Below, in pieces: positions 2,935 through 12,709 of a stretch of 64,000 nucleotides of DNA. The DNA is from Natronococcus occultus SP4 (lineage in GTDB: Archaea; Halobacteriota; Halobacteria; Halobacteriales; Natrialbaceae), in the NCBI RefSeq assembly GCF_000328685.1, contig NC_019974.1, positions 1,045,001-1,109,000 on the forward strand. Direction: 5' to 3'. The notes under the pieces were generated by a model. The model did no database searches. It was not told the DNA's origin and saw only the letters and a program-made list of their open reading frames with translations. Each line of letters starts with the position of its first letter. Position 1 is the stretch's first letter. The position numbers were made by a program, and so were the translations under genes.

Positions 2935-3078
2935 ATGATAGCTGCTGTCTCGCTCGGCGAGCGGGTCGGGCCGCGGACCCGCGACGTCGGTCGATCGAAA
3001 CGTTCGCTCGAGGACTCGACCGGGCCGTGCCCTGCGATCTGCGGGACGGGTTTCGAAGCGGCGGAGGCGCGAGCGTGA
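2935..3078 (+). CDS. Possible leaderless upstream ORF (47 aa)
   Basis: A TATA-like AT-rich stretch at about 2898-2912 is followed at 2935 by an ATG opening a 47-codon frame (MIAAVSLGERVGPRTRDVG...). Its TGA stop (3076-3078) overlaps the GTG start at 3075 of the propeller gene in a GTGA arrangement, as in translational coupling. The peptide is basic, unlike normal haloarchaeal proteins, so it may be a non-functional leader or chance. I list it because it decides how the next gene is read. Confidence 0.25.
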   Translation: MIAAVSLGERVGPRTRDVGRSKRSLEDSTGPCPAICGTGFEAAEARA

Positions 3079-4229
3079 GCGGAACGAACACCGGTCCGGA
3101 GGCGACGTTTCGACGGCGGTCGCTGGGCGAGACCGATCACCGATCGGCGCCGTGCCTCGCCGTTGCTGGCGTGTTCGTCGTCGTCGCTCGGCGGGACGGC
3201 ACCGTCACGGCCTTCGAGGACGACTCCCTCGAGTCCCGGTGGACGACCGCCACCTCGGGCCGGATCCACGAACTCGCCGTCTGCGGAGACGTCGCGGTCG
3301 TCGCGACCGGCTGCGAGGGAACGGCGACGGTCGCGGCCTACGCACTCGAGGACGGCCGTCGTCGCTGGCAGTACGACGTGTCACCGCCCGACGGCGACGA
3401 CGTCGGGGCCTCTCGTGTCGTCGCGCTCGAGGACGGCGCGACCGATCGGCTGTACGCGGCCGTCCGTCGCGTCGGCGACGGGAGACGGTCGGGGACCGTC
3501 CTCGCGTTCGACCGCGACGGGCGGGTCCGCTGGCGCTACGGGACCGACGCCTCGCCGGTCGCGCTCGCCGCGACCGAGCGGGGCGATCGGCTGGCGGTTG
3601 GCTACGATCGCTGCCCGGGCGCCCACGACAACGGGTTGGTCGTCCTCGAGACCGATGCCGGCGAACTCGCCTGGACCTGGGATCCCGGAACCGCGGGCGA
3701 CCGCCGCGTGAGCGACGTTGCGTTCGACGGCGACACTGTCGCGGTCGCGAGCTGTGGCGACGGCTGTGGCTACCTGCTCACGGACGGCGGTGCCGAACGC
3801 TGGCGAGTCCCGTTTGGAACCGAGGACGGAGCCAGGGCTCCGACCCATGCGTACGCCCACGACGGCCGAGCGGTCTTTGCCGTCGAACCCATCGAGCACC
3901 GCGACACCGACCACCGAATCGTCGCTGTCGACGGCGACGGCGGTGCGCTGTGGACCGCTTCCGGACGGGGCCGTATCGACGGATTCGCGACGAACGGCGA
4001 CGTCCTCGTCCCCCGTCCCGTCGGGGCCGACGTCGACACCCACGCGGTTCGTCGGTTCGTCCTCGAGACCGGTTCCGCCGAGGACGTGAGACTCGACGGA
4101 ACCGTCACCGCCGCGACCGTCGGCGAGGGGACGATCGCGGTGATCGAACGCCGCCGTTCGTTCAGTGACGGGGAAACGACGCGCGCCGAGGACACTCTCC
4201 TCGTCGGAGCAGTCATGCAGCAGGACTGA
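3075..4229 (+). CDS. PQQ-like beta-propeller protein
   Basis: The protein consists of repeated blades of the PQQ/BamB type. Short beta motifs recur with W/Y at the end of each blade, for example GTVTAFEDDSLESRWTT, RWQYDVSPPDGDD, VRWRYGTDASPVAL, LAWTWDPGTAGD and ALWTASGRGRID. There are about seven blades, enough for a closed propeller. No signal peptide is visible, so it is probably cytoplasmic or surface-associated by other means. Such proteins usually act as scaffolds; no enzymatic residues can be read. The frame is open from ATG 3027, but I prefer GTG 3075 because residues before it are low-complexity and the start overlaps a preceding stop. It stands alone, with the acidic protein cluster downstream. 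Confidence 0.7.
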   Translation: MSGTNTGPEATFRRRSLGETDHRSAPCLAVAGVFVVVARRDGTVTAFEDDSLESRWTTATSGRIHELAVCGDVAVVATGCEGTATVAAYALEDGRRRWQYDVSPPDGDDVGASRVVALEDGATDRLYAAVRRVGDGRRSGTVLAFDRDGRVRWRYGTDASPVALAATERGDRLAVGYDRCPGAHDNGLVVLETDAGELAWTWDPGTAGDRRVSDVAFDGDTVAVASCGDGCGYLLTDGGAERWRVPFGTEDGARAPTHAYAHDGRAVFAVEPIEHRDTDHRIVAVDGDGGALWTASGRGRIDGFATNGDVLVPRPVGADVDTHAVRRFVLETGSAEDVRLDGTVTAATVGEGTIAVIERRRSFSDGETTRAEDTLLVGAVMQQD

Positions 4230-4337
4230 CTCTATCACGGGAACGGTTCGGTTCGTCGCGTTCCGTCGAGACGAGTCGACGGTCGCATACGCAAGGCAAA
4301 CCACCACAACGGACACTCTCGTCTGTTTTTCCAGATA

Positions 4338-5528
4338 ATGACAGAGACGAGAGAGTACGATGACTCGGCGGAGCGTTCGGATTCAGCGGACGACCGACCG
4401 GGCTTTCGTTCGGCACTGACCGACGACGAAGGTCGACCACGCCGCGTGATGACCGACGGCGGAGAGGAAGAAGCTGAGGAAGAGGAGGACGAGGAAGCCG
4501 AAGAAGACGAGGAAGCCGAAGAAGACGAGGAAGCCGAAGAAGACGAGGAAGAAGCTGAGGAAGAGGAGGACGAAGAAGCCGAAGAAGAGGAGGATGAAGA
4601 CGAGGAAGAAGGTGAGGAAGGGGAGGACGAGGAAGCTGAAGACGAGGAAGAAGCTGAGGAGGACGAAGAAGCCGAAGAGGACGAGGAGGAAGCTGAGGAA
4701 GGGGAGGACGAGGAAGCTGAAGACGAGGAAGAAGCTGAGGAGGACGAAGAAGCCGAAGAGGACGAGGAGGAAGCTGAGGAAGGGGAGGACGAGGAAGCTG
4801 AAGACGAGGAAGAAGCTGAGGAAGAGGACGAAGAAGCCGAAGAGGACGAGGAGGAAGCTGAGGAAGAGGACGAAGAAGCCGAAGAGGACGAGGAGGAAGC
4901 ACCCGTCGGACACGAACAGGGCGCTGAGGAGTCCTACGAGGACGACGACGCCACGAACGTGCTCCACCTCGATCTCGATGGACTGTTCCTCGACCTGCTG
5001 GGTCTCGAGGTCAACCTGGATCCGGTCGTCCTCAACCTGTCGGCCCGGCCGGGAGAGGGGAACCTGCTCGGCAACCTGCTGTCGGCGGTCTCCGGACTGC
5101 TCGACGGCTCCCAGGAGCTGCTGGGCGGCGTCCAGTCGCTGCTCGAGCGACCGGCCGAGGCGCTCTCCTCGATCGTCGACCGCTCCCAGGAAGCGCTCGC
5201 CTCCCTGGTGAGTAGGCCACAGGAGTTCGTTAGCGAACTCCTGGGCGGCGACGAGGAAGACGAGGAGGGTGATGAAGACGAGGGCGACGAGGCCGAAGAC
5301 GGCGAGGACGAACAGGGCCGGATTTCGTCCGCGGCCGGGGCGGCAAGAGAGCGGATCTCGTCCGCGATCGAGACGATGACCGACAGTCTGCGCGGACTGA
5401 TTCCGGATCTCCCCGTCGAGGAGTTCATCGCCACGGTAGTCCGTGAGATCCTCCAGGCGCTGATCGACCAGCTCGAGGGCGACGAAGAGGCCGACGACCA
5501 GAACGGCAACGCGGAGGCGAGTGCATAA
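4338..5528 (+). CDS. Acidic repeat protein 1 with LLGL/LLGNLL domain (396 aa)
   Basis: First gene of a four-gene acidic cluster. Residues 1-45 are ordinary. About residues 44-195 are almost only Glu, Asp and Ala in repeats such as EEAEEDEEAEEDEE. Then follows a hydrophobic domain (about 210-300) with the motif LDLDGLFLDLLGLEV, a PGEGNLLGNLLSAVSGLLDG stretch and amphipathic helices (VQSLLERPAEALSSIVD). A second acidic stretch and a C-terminal amphipathic helical region (VEEFIATVVREILQALIDQL) complete it. The motif resembles a short LxLLGLxV...LLGNLL element that I recall from many uncharacterised bacterial and archaeal proteins. No catalytic residues are seen. ATG 4449 is an alternative start. 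The next gene begins 2 nt after its stop. Confidence 0.75.
   Translation: MTETREYDDSAERSDSADDRPGFRSALTDDEGRPRRVMTDGGEEEAEEEEDEEAEEDEEAEEDEEAEEDEEEAEEEEDEEAEEEEDEDEEEGEEGEDEEAEDEEEAEEDEEAEEDEEEAEEGEDEEAEDEEEAEEDEEAEEDEEEAEEGEDEEAEDEEEAEEEDEEAEEDEEEAEEEDEEAEEDEEEAPVGHEQGAEESYEDDDATNVLHLDLDGLFLDLLGLEVNLDPVVLNLSARPGEGNLLGNLLSAVSGLLDGSQELLGGVQSLLERPAEALSSIVDRSQEALASLVSRPQEFVSELLGGDEEDEEGDEDEGDEAEDGEDEQGRISSAAGAARERISSAIETMTDSLRGLIPDLPVEEFIATVVREILQALIDQLEGDEEADDQNGNAEASA
4608..4898 (+). repeat. Codon-phased tandem repeats (81 bp and 42 bp) in the acidic gene
   Basis: Copies of an 81 bp unit (27 codons) begin at 4608, 4689 and 4770 and are nearly identical. They are followed by a 42 bp unit (14 codons) repeated about twice from about 4815. 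Upstream, from about 4487, an 18 bp unit (gaggaagccgaagaagac) repeats four times. All periods are multiples of three, so copy number can change without a frameshift. There are no spacers, so this is not a CRISPR. Confidence 0.85.
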
Positions 5529-5530
5529 CA

Positions 5531-6007
5531 ATGAGTGAAGCATCCGAGTCACTGACGGAACAGATCGACTACGACAAGATTACCGAGAGCCTCGAGCTCG
5601 ACGACCTCCTCGAGGGAACCCAGTGGGAAGACGAGATCGACGAGGACGAGCCCCTCGGCGAGACCCTGGGAGGACTGATCGGTGCGATCATCGGTCGGAA
5701 GATCGGCGAGCAGGTCGGACAGCGGATCGGCGAACTCGTTGTCGAGGAGTTGCTGAGCGCCGACGAGGACGAAGCCGAAGATGGCGAAGACGAGGACGAA
5801 GCCGAAGATGGCGAAGACGAGGACGAAGTCGAAGATGGCGAAGACGAGGACGAGGAATCGGAGGGCGAGGACGAATCGTCCGACGGTGACGACGACGGCG
5901 AAGGGGACGAGGAGGACGAAGCCGAAGACGACGAAGGTGAGAACGAGGACGAGGAGACGGACGAAGCGGACGACGGGAACGAAGACGACGAGGACGGAGG
6001 AGAGTAG
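5531..6007 (+). CDS. Acidic repeat protein 2 with glycine zipper (158 aa)
   Basis: Second gene of the acidic cluster, starting 2 nt after the previous stop, so surely co-transcribed. The N-terminal third (DYDKITESLELDDLLEGTQW) is a soluble amphipathic region. Residues about 44-72 form a glycine zipper (LGGLIGAIIGRKIGEQVGQR and the following helix) with GxxxG spacing, able to pack helices or insert in a membrane. The rest is Glu/Asp-rich, including three EAEDGEDED units encoded by a 27 bp tandem repeat at 5771-5851. The zipper resembles that in acidic protein 3. There are no cysteines and no recognisable enzyme motif, and I assign no function. Confidence 0.75.
   Translation: MSEASESLTEQIDYDKITESLELDDLLEGTQWEDEIDEDEPLGETLGGLIGAIIGRKIGEQVGQRIGELVVEELLSADEDEAEDGEDEDEAEDGEDEDEVEDGEDEDEESEGEDESSDGDDDGEGDEEDEAEDDEGENEDEETDEADDGNEDDEDGGE
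5771..5851 (+). repeat. 27 bp tandem repeat, three copies
   Basis: Three adjacent 27 bp units start at 5771, 5798 and 5825 and encode EAEDGEDED (third copy EVEDGEDED). The phase is in codons, so expansion or contraction keeps the reading frame. Confidence 0.85.
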
Positions 6008-6049
6008 TCGTGGTGCCGAGTTCTCTACCAGCGACTCGAGGTGAGCGCG

Positions 6050-6805
6050 ATGAGTGAGGACTCCGGACTGAAACAGATGGTCACCGACGAGGTCACCGAA
6101 CAGGTCGACGTCGCCGATCTGCTCGGGGACGGCGACCTCAAGGACAACCTCGACGGCGGCGAGGTCGGTGCGGCCGTCGGCCGCCAGTTCGGCGAACAGC
6201 TCGGTCGCGAGATCGGCGCGACGGTCGGTCACGACGTCCAGGACACCCTCAGAGAGGGGCTCGAGAGCGGCAAGAGCCTCCGGGAGCTGCTCTCCGATCT
6301 CGTGGAGGCGATCCGCGCAGCGATCAGCAAGGCGATCGGTAACGTCCTCGGACAGGACGTCCTCTCGTCGGCGACCGGCGCGTTGACGGACGGTGAAACC
6401 GAGGCCGAGGACGACGAGTCGCCGGAAGCGGACACCGAGGACGAAGCGGACGAAGAGTTAGACGAAGACGAGCCGGAAGAAGCGGACACCGAGGACGAGT
6501 CGGAGGAAGAACCCGAGGACGACGACTCCGACGCCACAGACGAGGAGGCCGACGAAAGCGACAAGGCCGACGACGACGAACCCGAAAGGGAGGAGCCCGA
6601 CGAGCCGTCGGTCGAAGAGCTCGAGGACCTGCGCCAGGAGACCCTCGAGGACTTCCTCGGCGTGATGTCCTACCAGGATCTCCAGTCGGTCGCCAAGGAC
6701 GTCGGCGTCAAGGCCAATCTCAGCCGCGAGGAGATGACCGACGGGATCATCGAGGCCGTCGCTGACGACGACGCCGGGGCCGACGATTCGGACGACTCCG
6801 AGTAG
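6050..6805 (+). CDS. Acidic protein 3 with glycine zipper and SAP-like C-terminal domain (251 aa)
   Basis: Third gene of the acidic cluster, 42 nt after gene 2. I chose ATG 6050 because a Shine-Dalgarno-like gaggtga (6038-6044) precedes it at normal spacing; a GTG at 6041 is in frame. The N-terminus (LKQMVTDEVTEQVDVADLL) leads to a glycine zipper (VGAAVGRQFGEQLGREIGAT) and an amphipathic helix (LSDLVEAIRAAISKAIGNVL). A long Glu/Asp region follows (about 120-195). The C-terminus (about 200-240, with DFLGVMSYQDLQSVAKDVGV and a basic helix after it) looks like a SAP, Rho-N or LEM-type helix-extended-loop-helix. That would hint at nucleic-acid or protein binding, but the match is by eye only. Confidence 0.72.
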   Translation: MSEDSGLKQMVTDEVTEQVDVADLLGDGDLKDNLDGGEVGAAVGRQFGEQLGREIGATVGHDVQDTLREGLESGKSLRELLSDLVEAIRAAISKAIGNVLGQDVLSSATGALTDGETEAEDDESPEADTEDEADEELDEDEPEEADTEDESEEEPEDDDSDATDEEADESDKADDDEPEREEPDEPSVEELEDLRQETLEDFLGVMSYQDLQSVAKDVGVKANLSREEMTDGIIEAVADDDAGADDSDDSE

Positions 6806-6829
6806 CCTCACCGCTACCCCCATCCGACC

Positions 6830-7795
6830 ATGACCGACGAACTCTACGACCGTATCACGGAGATACTCGACGACGCCAGCACGGAAAGTGGCGCCCTCGC
6901 CGTTCCAGACGAGGACGACGGCGCCGACGACGACCTGCTCGAGCTGGCCGAGGAGGCGGCCGACATTCTCGAGGAGACCGACCCCAAGGAGCTGCTCGAG
7001 GCGGTCGGACTGGGCACCCTCGAGGACGGTACCGAGCCCGAGACCGTCCCGGAGGCGATCACCGAGGGCAAGCCCGAACACGTCGAGGAGCTCCAGCGGC
7101 TGGTCCGGCTCGCGAAGCTCGCCGACCGGTCGGAGGAGGACGAACTCGGCGACGTGATCGCTGGACTCCGCGAGGCGACCGGCGAGGACGGCGATGCCGA
7201 CTCCGAAGCCGATGACGAGGAAGAGACGGACGACGAGGACGCCGAGAGCGAGGGAGATGCAGACGATGAGGACGCCGAAAGCGAAACGGACGACGACGCG
7301 GACAGAGATGACGACGAGGCCGCGGACGAGGAGTCGGCGGACGCGAGCGACGAACTCGAGGATCGCCTCCGGGACGCCGTGGGTTCGTCGTTCGAGGAGT
7401 TCGGCGCCGACCTCGAGTCGGTTCGGGACCAGCTAGAAGCGGCGGCGGGTTCCGACGACGGGTCGGACGAGGCCGAGGAGGAAGAGGGGCTCCTCGAAGC
7501 CGCCGACGACCTCCTGGACTCCGAGGACGAGGACGACGAACTCCTCGAAGCCGCCGACGACCTCCTGGACTCCGAGGCCGAGGACGACGAACTCCTCGAC
7601 TCCGACGACGAAGACGAGGAGGAGGCGGACAACGATGAGGACGAAGACGACGAGGACGATGGCCTTCTCGGCTCCGACGAGGGACTCGGCTCGAGCGAGT
7701 CCTCCCGCCACTCGACGATGGCGCCACCGCCCAACGAGCGGGCGGACATGAACGCGGTCAAGCGCCACTCGACGATGCCGAAACGAAACCGGTAG
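6830..7795 (+). CDS. Acidic repeat protein 4 with basic RHSTM tail (321 aa)
   Basis: Fourth gene of the cluster, 24 nt after gene 3. Residues 1-110 are a helical acidic domain (LYDRITEILDDAS, LLELAEEAADILEETDPKEL, VEELQRLVRLAKLAD). A Glu/Asp/Ser region follows, then a helix (LEDRLRDAVGSSFEEFGADL), then a 17-residue repeat (LLEAADDLLDSEDEDDE) encoded by a 51 bp DNA repeat starting at 7490 and 7541 with a partial copy at 7592. The last 31 residues change character: basic, Pro-rich, and containing RHSTM twice (SRHSTMAPPP and KRHSTMPKRNR). Such a tail on an acidic protein may be a docking or sorting signal. I know no characterised homologue. Confidence 0.72.
   Translation: MTDELYDRITEILDDASTESGALAVPDEDDGADDDLLELAEEAADILEETDPKELLEAVGLGTLEDGTEPETVPEAITEGKPEHVEELQRLVRLAKLADRSEEDELGDVIAGLREATGEDGDADSEADDEEETDDEDAESEGDADDEDAESETDDDADRDDDEAADEESADASDELEDRLRDAVGSSFEEFGADLESVRDQLEAAAGSDDGSDEAEEEEGLLEAADDLLDSEDEDDELLEAADDLLDSEAEDDELLDSDDEDEEEADNDEDEDDEDDGLLGSDEGLGSSESSRHSTMAPPPNERADMNAVKRHSTMPKRNR
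7490..7642 (+). repeat. 51 bp tandem repeat, two full copies and a partial
   Basis: Units start at 7490 and 7541, with a third truncated and diverged unit at 7592. They encode the 17-residue LLEAADDLLDSE motif with an acidic spacer. The leucine spacing would give amphipathic helical segments. Confidence 0.75.
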
Positions 7796-11477: not shown

Positions 11478-12200
11478 TCAGCGCTCGTCCTCGCGCTTGA
11501 CGAGTCGTTCCCGCCCGATGAACCGGGGGCGCTCGCCGATCGCGAGGAAATTGTCGACGTCCTCGCGGGCTTCCCTGGCCGTCCCCTTCTCTGGGTTGTA
11601 GTCCCGCGACCCTTCGCTGCCAAGCGCGTCGTACAGTTTCTCGACGTCCTCGAAGTAGAGCTCGGCGACGCCGTCGAACTCGGCGCTTTCGGGATCGGTC
11701 GGGGCGACCGTGTTGTACTTCACGACGCCGTCGATCTCGCGGGCGATCGGGGTGTGTTCGGTCTGCCAGTAGTCGACGAACTCCTCGTGGCTCATCCCCT
11801 CCTTCCGGACGAGGAAGGCGGAGTGTTTGTAGAGCCCGTCCGTGTCGCCGTCGACCTCGTCCTTCTGGACGGTCTCCTCGCCGATGATCCGGGGTCGCTC
11901 GTCGATGGCGAGGAAGTGTTCGACGTCCTCGCGGGCTTCCCTGGCCGTCCCCTTCTCGGGATCGTAGTCCCGCGACCCCTCGCTGCCCAGCGCGTCGTAC
12001 AGTTTCTCGACGTCCTCGAAGTAGAGTTCGGCAAGCCCGTCGAACTCGGCGTTTTCGGGGTCGGTCGGCAGCACCTGCTGGTAGCGAACGACGCCCTCGA
12101 TCCCGCGGGCGATCGGGGTGTGTTCGGTCTGCCAGTAGTCGACGAACTCCTCGTGGCTCATCCCCTCCTTCCGGACGAGGAGGGCGACGTGTTTGTACAT
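11478..12200 (-). CDS. Tandem EthD-domain protein (two repeats)
   Basis: A 240 aa protein made of two nearly identical halves. Each begins YKH(V/S)A(L/F)LVRKEGMSHEEF and continues VDYWQTEHTPIAR, the hallmark of the EthD/dimeric alpha-beta barrel superfamily, whose members include muconolactone-isomerase-like and ether-degradation accessory proteins. The protein repeat is 122 residues and the DNA repeat 366 bp. The two halves probably form an intramolecular version of the usual dimer, with the active cavity between beta sheets. The start ATG at 12198-12200 is 25-33 nt from a TATA box, fitting a leaderless mRNA. A single-domain homologue lies divergently at 12389. Substrate unknown. Confidence 0.85.
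   Translation of the reverse strand: MYKHVALLVRKEGMSHEEFVDYWQTEHTPIARGIEGVVRYQQVLPTDPENAEFDGLAELYFEDVEKLYDALGSEGSRDYDPEKGTAREAREDVEHFLAIDERPRIIGEETVQKDEVDGDTDGLYKHSAFLVRKEGMSHEEFVDYWQTEHTPIAREIDGVVKYNTVAPTDPESAEFDGVAELYFEDVEKLYDALGSEGSRDYNPEKGTAREAREDVDNFLAIGERPRFIGRERLVKREDER
11500..12200 (-). repeat. 366 bp internal duplication in the EthD gene
   Basis: Corresponding positions in the two halves are offset by exactly 366 bp (for example gatcggggtg at 11745 and 12111). Long blocks are identical at the DNA level, including synonymous positions, which points to a fairly recent duplication or ongoing gene conversion. Confidence 0.8.
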
Positions 12201-12224
12201 CGGAACGACGGTTCTCCGCACAGA

Positions 12225-12266
12225 CAAATAAAGCATGAGGGGAGTGACCGTTTCCCACTGATGGGA
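12225..12266. promoter_or_regulatory. Promoter of the EthD/HD operon with upstream palindrome
   Basis: On the minus strand a TATA box (ctttatttg, 12225-12233) lies 25-33 nt from the ATG at 12200, matching leaderless haloarchaeal promoters. Just upstream of it is the palindrome TCCCA-N4-TGGGA (12253-12266). A further CTCCCAC/GTGGGG pair lies at about 12304-12331, between the divergent genes. These are candidate sites for the IclR regulator. Confidence 0.5.
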
Positions 12267-12388
12267 CCATCTGTCGGCTACGAACGGTATCTCGACCGTA
12301 GCTCTCCCACCTACGGATGAGATTTGTGGGGTACGAGACCGTACCGCACCGATAGAACGAAGTCGAGGGATCACGACGGTACGGCTGC

Positions 12389-12709
12389 ATGATCAAACAG
12401 GTCGAGTTTCTGGTTCGCAGAGACGAGTACGATCACGAGGAGTTCGTCGAGTGGTGGCAGGGCGACCACGCCGACCTCGCGCGCGACCTGCCCGGACTGA
12501 AACGCTACAGCACGTCCGTTCCGACGAACCCCGAGGCCGTCGCGTACGACGGCGTCCTCGAACTGGCTTTCGACGATATGGCAGCGCTCGAGGACGCCTT
12601 CGACTCCGAGACGGGCCAGGCAGTCATGGCCGACGCAGCCGACTACATCGATTTCGACGCCGGCGAGCGCATGATCGTCGAGGAGACGGTTCACGTCGAC
12701 GAGAGATGA
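12389..12709 (+). CDS. Single-domain EthD-type protein
   Basis: A 106 aa protein of the EthD/dimeric alpha-beta barrel type. It starts IKQVEFLVRRDEYDHEEFVE with WWQGDHADLAR, parallel to the YWQTEHTPIAR motif of the tandem protein across the divergent promoter, and ends with a strand RMIVEETVHV. It should work as a homodimer. Its stop codon overlaps the ATG of the ThDP enzyme (ATGA at 12706-12709), so the two are translationally coupled and likely act on the same pathway. The specific reaction is unknown. Confidence 0.82.
   Translation: MIKQVEFLVRRDEYDHEEFVEWWQGDHADLARDLPGLKRYSTSVPTNPEAVAYDGVLELAFDDMAALEDAFDSETGQAVMADAADYIDFDAGERMIVEETVHVDER

Follow-up and report, generated by a model that had tools for sequence, protein, structure and literature searches.

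The window analysed here is a 64,000-nt stretch of the Natronococcus occultus SP4 genome (4.31 Mb, three contigs; NC_019974.1, positions 1,045,001 to 1,109,000). Between 4338 and 7795 it holds four adjacent, tightly spaced genes on the plus strand (Table 1), whose products are extremely acidic: D and E make up 47, 51, 36 and 42% of the residues of ORF1, ORF2, ORF3 and ORF4, respectively, and K and R 3-6%, against 16-20% D+E for the products of the three flanking genes. Within the four proteins, D/E climbs to 65-85% in the most acidic stretches of 60 residues, and long disordered acidic regions are common to all of them. The intergenic gaps are 2, 33 and 24 nt if the start of ORF3 is taken at 6041; 6050 is the likelier start, since most orthologues begin there (MSDxxxLK), and it leaves a gap of 42 nt after ORF2. 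A preliminary description of this DNA had listed the close spacing (including a 42-nt gap, which fits the likelier start), the Glu/Asp richness of all four products, an LLGL/LLGNLL core in ORF1, glycine zippers in ORF2 and ORF3 and a duplicated basic tail in ORF4. All of these held up: the core is seen in the alignment, the zippers have Gly every four residues, and the tail reads RHSTMAPPP...RHSTMPK. Scans of ORF1-4 against Pfam and NCBIfam gave no credible family, and the low-scoring matches look like artefacts of acidic composition. An identity as phasins or PHA granule proteins was rejected, as no phasin family of Pfam or NCBIfam matched at E<=1.

Table 1. Features of the four-gene locus (window coordinates)
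Feature	Position	Strand	Description
Conserved 5' element CGCAYACGCAAGG..AA..ACCACAACGCT	4284..4313	+	30 nt, near-invariant, 54 nt before ORF1 start
ORF1	4338..5528	+	396 aa: acidic arm, 60-residue LLGL/LLGNLL core, 11-residue-periodic amphipathic helix, C-terminal helices
ORF1 conserved core ATNVLHLDLDGLFLDLLGLEV...GNLLGNLLSAVSGLLDG	4950..5129	+	from alignment
ORF1 hendecad helix	5127..5225 (approximate limits)	+	lag-11 repeats RPAEALSSIVD / RSQEALASLVS / RPQEFVSELLG
ORF2	5531..6007	+	158 aa: glycine-zipper helix (Gly every 4), then acidic tail
ORF3	6041..6805	+	254 aa: glycine-zipper helical hairpin, acidic linker, three-helix C-terminal domain
ORF4	6830..7795	+	321 aa: predicted GvpI paralogue; acidic linker, basic tail with two ST(M)P motifs
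ORF4 tail RHSTMAPPPNERADMNAVKRHSTMPKRNR	7706..7795	+	very likely homologous to the GvpI C-terminus

The 38 loci retrieved, which represent 26 genera of the family Natrialbaceae, all have ORF1-2-3-4 in the same order and on the same strand, a recurrence that puts the arrangement far outside chance. The ORF1 core and ORF3 were each found in 104 of the 121 family genomes, almost always the same genomes. In nearly all loci the ORF1 stop and the ORF2 start overlap by 4 nt (ATGA) or lie 1-2 nt apart (genes in the relatives were called with our own script, with approximate start codons). The kept order, the coupling of ORF1 to ORF2 and the joint presence and absence bear out the joint function that had been proposed from the shared design. 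A search of plasmids with the ORF1 core gave no match.

The 5' element is the best-scoring site upstream of ORF1 in all 37 family loci examined, 39-60 nt (mostly 53-60 nt) from the first in-frame ATG, and occurs as a single copy in the N. occultus SP4 genome. It may be an operator, a leader RNA or a promoter. An Rfam search of the ORF1 leader with this element gave nothing near the gathering score; the element was not found before gvpA, nor was any other upstream element common to ORF1 and gvpA. Two neighbouring genes were considered as further members and set aside. The gene at 3027-4229, encoding a PQQ beta-propeller (BamB-like), immediately precedes ORF1 in only about half the family loci, cbiA taking that place in others, and a downstream universal stress protein gene is a common neighbour at variable distance.

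Homologues outside the family led to loci, annotated with gvp seed sequences, in which the gas vesicle genes gvpO, gvpA, gvpF, gvpG, gvpH, gvpJ, gvpK, gvpL and gvpM adjoin. The annotation also showed that gvpA-gvpO-ORF1-ORF2-ORF3-ORF4 is contiguous in two genomes of Natrialbaceae (L224 and L225), L226 and L233 have gvpA-gvpO-ORF1 followed by an ORF2/3 fusion, and in L228 (gvpF-G-H-ORF1-zipper-gvpI) ORF1 and a zipper gene stand between gvpH and gvpI. In some genomes the module is immediately downstream of gvpA-gvpO, in others at a different chromosomal site. Among the genomes with both coordinates at hand, the distance from ORF1 to gvpA is bimodal: <4 kb in 16 genomes from several families, the two Natrialbaceae included, where the genes lie in or next to the gvp genes, and >170 kb in 34. 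N. occultus SP4 does not belong to the former; its gvpA, in an O-N-A / F-G-I-J-K-L cluster, is 1.67 Mb from ORF1. In most relatives, too, the four-gene set is hundreds of kb away from gvpA, which may explain why it has been overlooked. Conservation of all four genes together, named in the preliminary description as support for a system, is seen in 26 genera; in some haloarchaea the locus is inside or beside the gvp cluster.

Several other features of these loci were noted. A zinc-ribbon protein of 112-117 aa is encoded between gvpO and ORF1 (L198:11778-12116 and L226:9338-9691), and because GvpC of Halobacterium has a zinc finger at its end (PMC9372576), this gene may be a further unrecognised gas vesicle part. 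The 288-kb replicon of N. occultus SP4 (contig C3, L203:8314-10899) carries a second, partial gvp cluster with GvpJ-, K-, L- and M-like genes, apparently without gvpA, gvpF or gvpG. L192 and L201 have an expanded module with three glycine-zipper genes and an ORF1 of ~780-840 aa, in which inserted repeats resemble Ig or carboxypeptidase-regulatory domains.

The distribution of the set follows that of gvpA. Within the family, 105 out of 108 genomes with gvpA have the set, as against 0 out of 13 without it (Fisher p=6e-15). In a sample of 242 Halobacteria genomes that are >=90% complete, the ORF1 core is found in 78 of 97 gvpA-bearing genomes and in 0 of 145 others (p=1e-45), and with Natrialbaceae removed the figures are 26 of 42 and 0 of 139 (p=9e-21); these Fisher values overstate the significance, because related genomes are non-independent samples. 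One match (G098, L085) was judged to be a secreted, cysteine-containing paralogue of ORF1 and was counted as an absence. In both the class and the family samples, then, the set occurs only in gvpA-bearing genomes. The family genomes lacking gvpA are spread over six genera, several of which include sister species with the two loci unlinked; given this and the bimodal distances, the joint absence of gvpA and the set is not one deletion.

ORF4 provides a connection with the gas vesicle proteins. It matches the protein in the gvpI slot of relatives along most of its sequence (hhalign prob 99.3, E 2.6e-20; negative controls, prob 0.3 and 7.3), and its tail aligns with GvpI of Halobacterium pNRC100 (a hand-written GvpI-tail consensus was used only to locate the annotated GvpI in Halobacterium). 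Both tails have two ST(M/V)P motifs (Halobacterium HSTMPPQKSNAENAVRNSHSTVPK; ORF4 HSTMAPPPNERADMNAVKRHSTMPK). We consider ORF4 very likely to be homologous to GvpI. ORF4 differs from Halobacterium GvpI in having neither its basic N-terminus nor the RIYGRRF block at its very end, and, whereas the latter is strongly basic, ORF4 is basic only in its tail; the long GvpI of relatives is also not basic overall. The slot between gvpH and gvpJ is occupied not by ORF4 but by another GvpI-like gene; as the genome thus has a GvpI of its own in the usual place, ORF4 is an additional paralogue and not the orthologous GvpI. The long GvpI of the main gvp cluster was recognised in the genome paper of N. magadii (PMC3403918), and ORF4 is, judged by its alignment, a second GvpI copy in addition to it.

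ORF2 and the N-terminal part of ORF3 are paralogues through their glycine-zipper helix (hhalign prob 97.8, E 1.2e-12). The model of ORF3 has a helical zipper hairpin (residues 39-116) and a confident three-helix domain (191-251). The SAP-like end ascribed to ORF3 in the preliminary description is partly upheld: the three-helix domain is there, but its fold similarity to SAP/Rho_N is weak. The last ~50 residues resemble SAP or Rho_N-like three-helix domains, including the C-terminus of haloarchaeal ribosomal protein uS3, in a statistically weak manner, and unlike such domains elsewhere the ORF3 copy is joined to a glycine-zipper hairpin. Searches of the PDB by sequence and, with a model of moderate confidence, by fold gave no significant match for ORF3. 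A uS3 gene whose C-terminal domain is very like that of ORF3 (LSYRELQLLAKDVGVKANLSREEMTDEL) was seen at L194:9222-10166.

The helix that follows the ORF1 core is periodic, with identity peaks at 7, 11, 18 and 22 residues and a lag-11 identity of 0.24 (0.107 +/- 0.007 in shuffles). In a helix, a period of 11 residues keeps the same face aligned. The AlphaFold2 model of ORF1 has short strands for the core, then a 50-residue helix (mean pLDDT 66), and PDB sequence and fold searches with such moderate-confidence models gave no significant match. The core itself, of ~60 residues, is shared with secreted LLGL/GNLLCAVAGLLD proteins of bacteria and archaea, which belong to no Pfam family; unlike ORF1, these have signal-peptide-like N-termini and a conserved cysteine pair. 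This unnamed domain (LLGLxVxLxxVxLDIxAxPGxGNLLGNLLCAVAGLLD; seen e.g. in L127, L135, L152, L162, L164, L170 and L085), with no Pfam family in the members scanned, is found in secreted-looking proteins of actinobacteria, cyanobacteria, Bacillales, acidobacteria and haloarchaea; planctomycete proteins carry many copies of it in tandem.

ORF1 resembles GvpC in being acidic, in its amphipathic repeat helix, in its position downstream of gvpA in the linked cases and in its complementary distribution. The resemblance is not one of detectable homology: ORF1 has no zinc finger, its units are of 11 residues instead of 32-38, it carries the additional LLGL core and long acidic arm, and Pfam finds no PF05465 repeat in ORF1 or in the N. 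occultus SP4 genome. In the linked loci ORF1 follows gvpO or gvpH and not gvpA directly, unlike the gvpACNO order. In the window copy the repeat spans about 33 residues (3 x 11), and the repeat of cyanobacterial GvpC, also 33 residues, runs along the GvpA rib (PMC9994262); by analogy, and not by homology, three ORF1 hendecads might parallel one such repeat.

ORF1 and GvpC exclude each other. Haloarchaeal GvpC (PF05465) is found in 0 of 78 genomes with ORF1 and in 11 of the 19 gvpA-bearing genomes without it (p=8e-10). These 11 genomes, all with gvpA, are the only ones among the 242 with multi-repeat PF05465 matches; single weak matches in G217, G239 and G297 (each to one repeat, E 4e-4 to 7e-4) were put down to chance. 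PF05465 was used because PF01304 is uninformative here, being silent everywhere, controls included. A helical-repeat gene between gvpA and gvpN in L216 is, from its position and appearance alone, a twelfth GvpC candidate. An 11-gene gvp cluster without gvpC and gvpDE is known from Natrialba, Natrinema, Halopiger and others (PMC4390858, PMC3403918). The exclusion follows GvpC, not gvpDE, as three GvpC-bearing loci (L204, L208 and L214) have no gvpD found (3 kb each) and no module. There are also gvpA-bearing genomes with neither GvpC nor the module near gvp (G069, G174, G214, G239 and G255; such loci are L217-L221), so a part of this type is dispensable. GvpC loss gives weak vesicles (PMC7688916, PMC4390858), and species with the GvpC-less cluster are reported to be gas-vesicle negative in culture, for which the reviews have no explanation (PMC4390858).

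Taken together, ORF1-4 are almost certainly involved in gas vesicles. They probably form an unrecognised gvp module of GvpC-less haloarchaea, in which ORF1 would be the protein most likely to do the job of GvpC. To a coat role like that of GvpC we give an even chance; ORF1 would be at the shell surface and bind GvpA, with a division of labour among the four proteins. The amphipathic 11-residue helix of ORF1 would lie on the outer face of the GvpA ribs, coating or bracing the shell in place of GvpC, while the core would oligomerise or anchor ORF1 and the acidic arms would keep it soluble in molar salt. The glycine-zipper helices of ORF2 and ORF3 could pack with each other or with the shell. GvpI binds GvpH, GvpL and GvpC, and its loss leads to very long vesicles (PMC7688916, PMC9501494); ORF4, as a second GvpI, might couple the set to the GvpH/GvpL assembly complex and limit vesicle length as GvpI does in Halobacterium. 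Equally balanced, in our judgement, is the broader proposal that the acidic four-protein module, by means of its hendecad amphipathic and glycine-zipper helices, is a second, evolutionarily unrelated way to coat and shape gas vesicles, which takes the place of GvpC in several families of haloarchaea and escaped notice since it is usually far from the gvp cluster.

The main rival to the coat role, which we prefer, is that the module acts during assembly and outside the finished shell, where it would nucleate, chaperone or gather the hydrophobic GvpA, GvpJ and GvpM and the accessory Gvp complex, the acidic arms keeping the partners soluble or clustering them, possibly in a condensate. GvpI, of which ORF4 is a paralogue, has GvpH, GvpL and most of the accessory Gvp proteins as binding partners (PMC7688916); ORF1 and a zipper gene of L228 are inside the accessory operon; and the disordered acidic regions of all four proteins would suit such a role. 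We nevertheless regard it as rather unlikely, as replacement better accounts for the exclusion with GvpC, which is a protein of the shell surface, and the linked genes of Natrialbaceae follow gvpA-gvpO on the same strand and are not in the accessory operon.

It is improbable that the module is regulatory and takes the place of GvpD/GvpE, with the SAP/Rho_N-like domain of ORF3 binding nucleic acid, perhaps the invariant element before ORF1. The literature has gvpDE missing from the genomes that carry the module (PMC4390858), and such a three-helix end of ORF3 and an invariant upstream element do exist, but GvpC-bearing loci without a detected gvpD are also without the module, the element is absent before gvpA, and ORF1, ORF2 and ORF4 do not look regulatory. 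Even less credit is due to the idea that the set is unrelated to gas vesicles, the acidic proteins and the gvp genes both marking the same lifestyle or large genomes. The great distance from gvpA in N. occultus SP4 and the reported lack of gas vesicles in such species (PMC4390858) would agree with it; the absence of ORF1 from all 145 genomes without gvpA, the tight linkage to gvp in several families and the homology of ORF4 to GvpI speak against it.

The coat role remains our preferred reading, and the membrane-associated or condensate-forming assembly suggested in the preliminary description is not supported over a role in gas vesicles. Its candidate undescribed system is new in that the ORF1-3 families appear unnamed in the libraries searched, but it is part of a known organelle and not free-standing. 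A match to gas vesicles, named there as evidence against a new system, was indeed obtained through ORF4 and through the genes in or beside gvp clusters elsewhere, and ORF1-3 had no named match. Among open-access papers we found no report naming ORF1-4. If the module is the missing part, the GvpC-less gvp gene set would comprise ~15 genes rather than 11, and its vesicles could be built and tested; inventories of gvp genes drawn from the cluster alone would be incomplete. Gas vesicle engineering, which at present relies mainly on GvpC as a handle, would also gain a new family of shell-associated proteins.

Elsewhere in the window, three consecutive copies of what appears to be an EthD-like dimeric alpha-beta domain are encoded at 11478-12709, in a duplicated minus-strand protein of 298 aa and a plus-strand protein of 106 aa.
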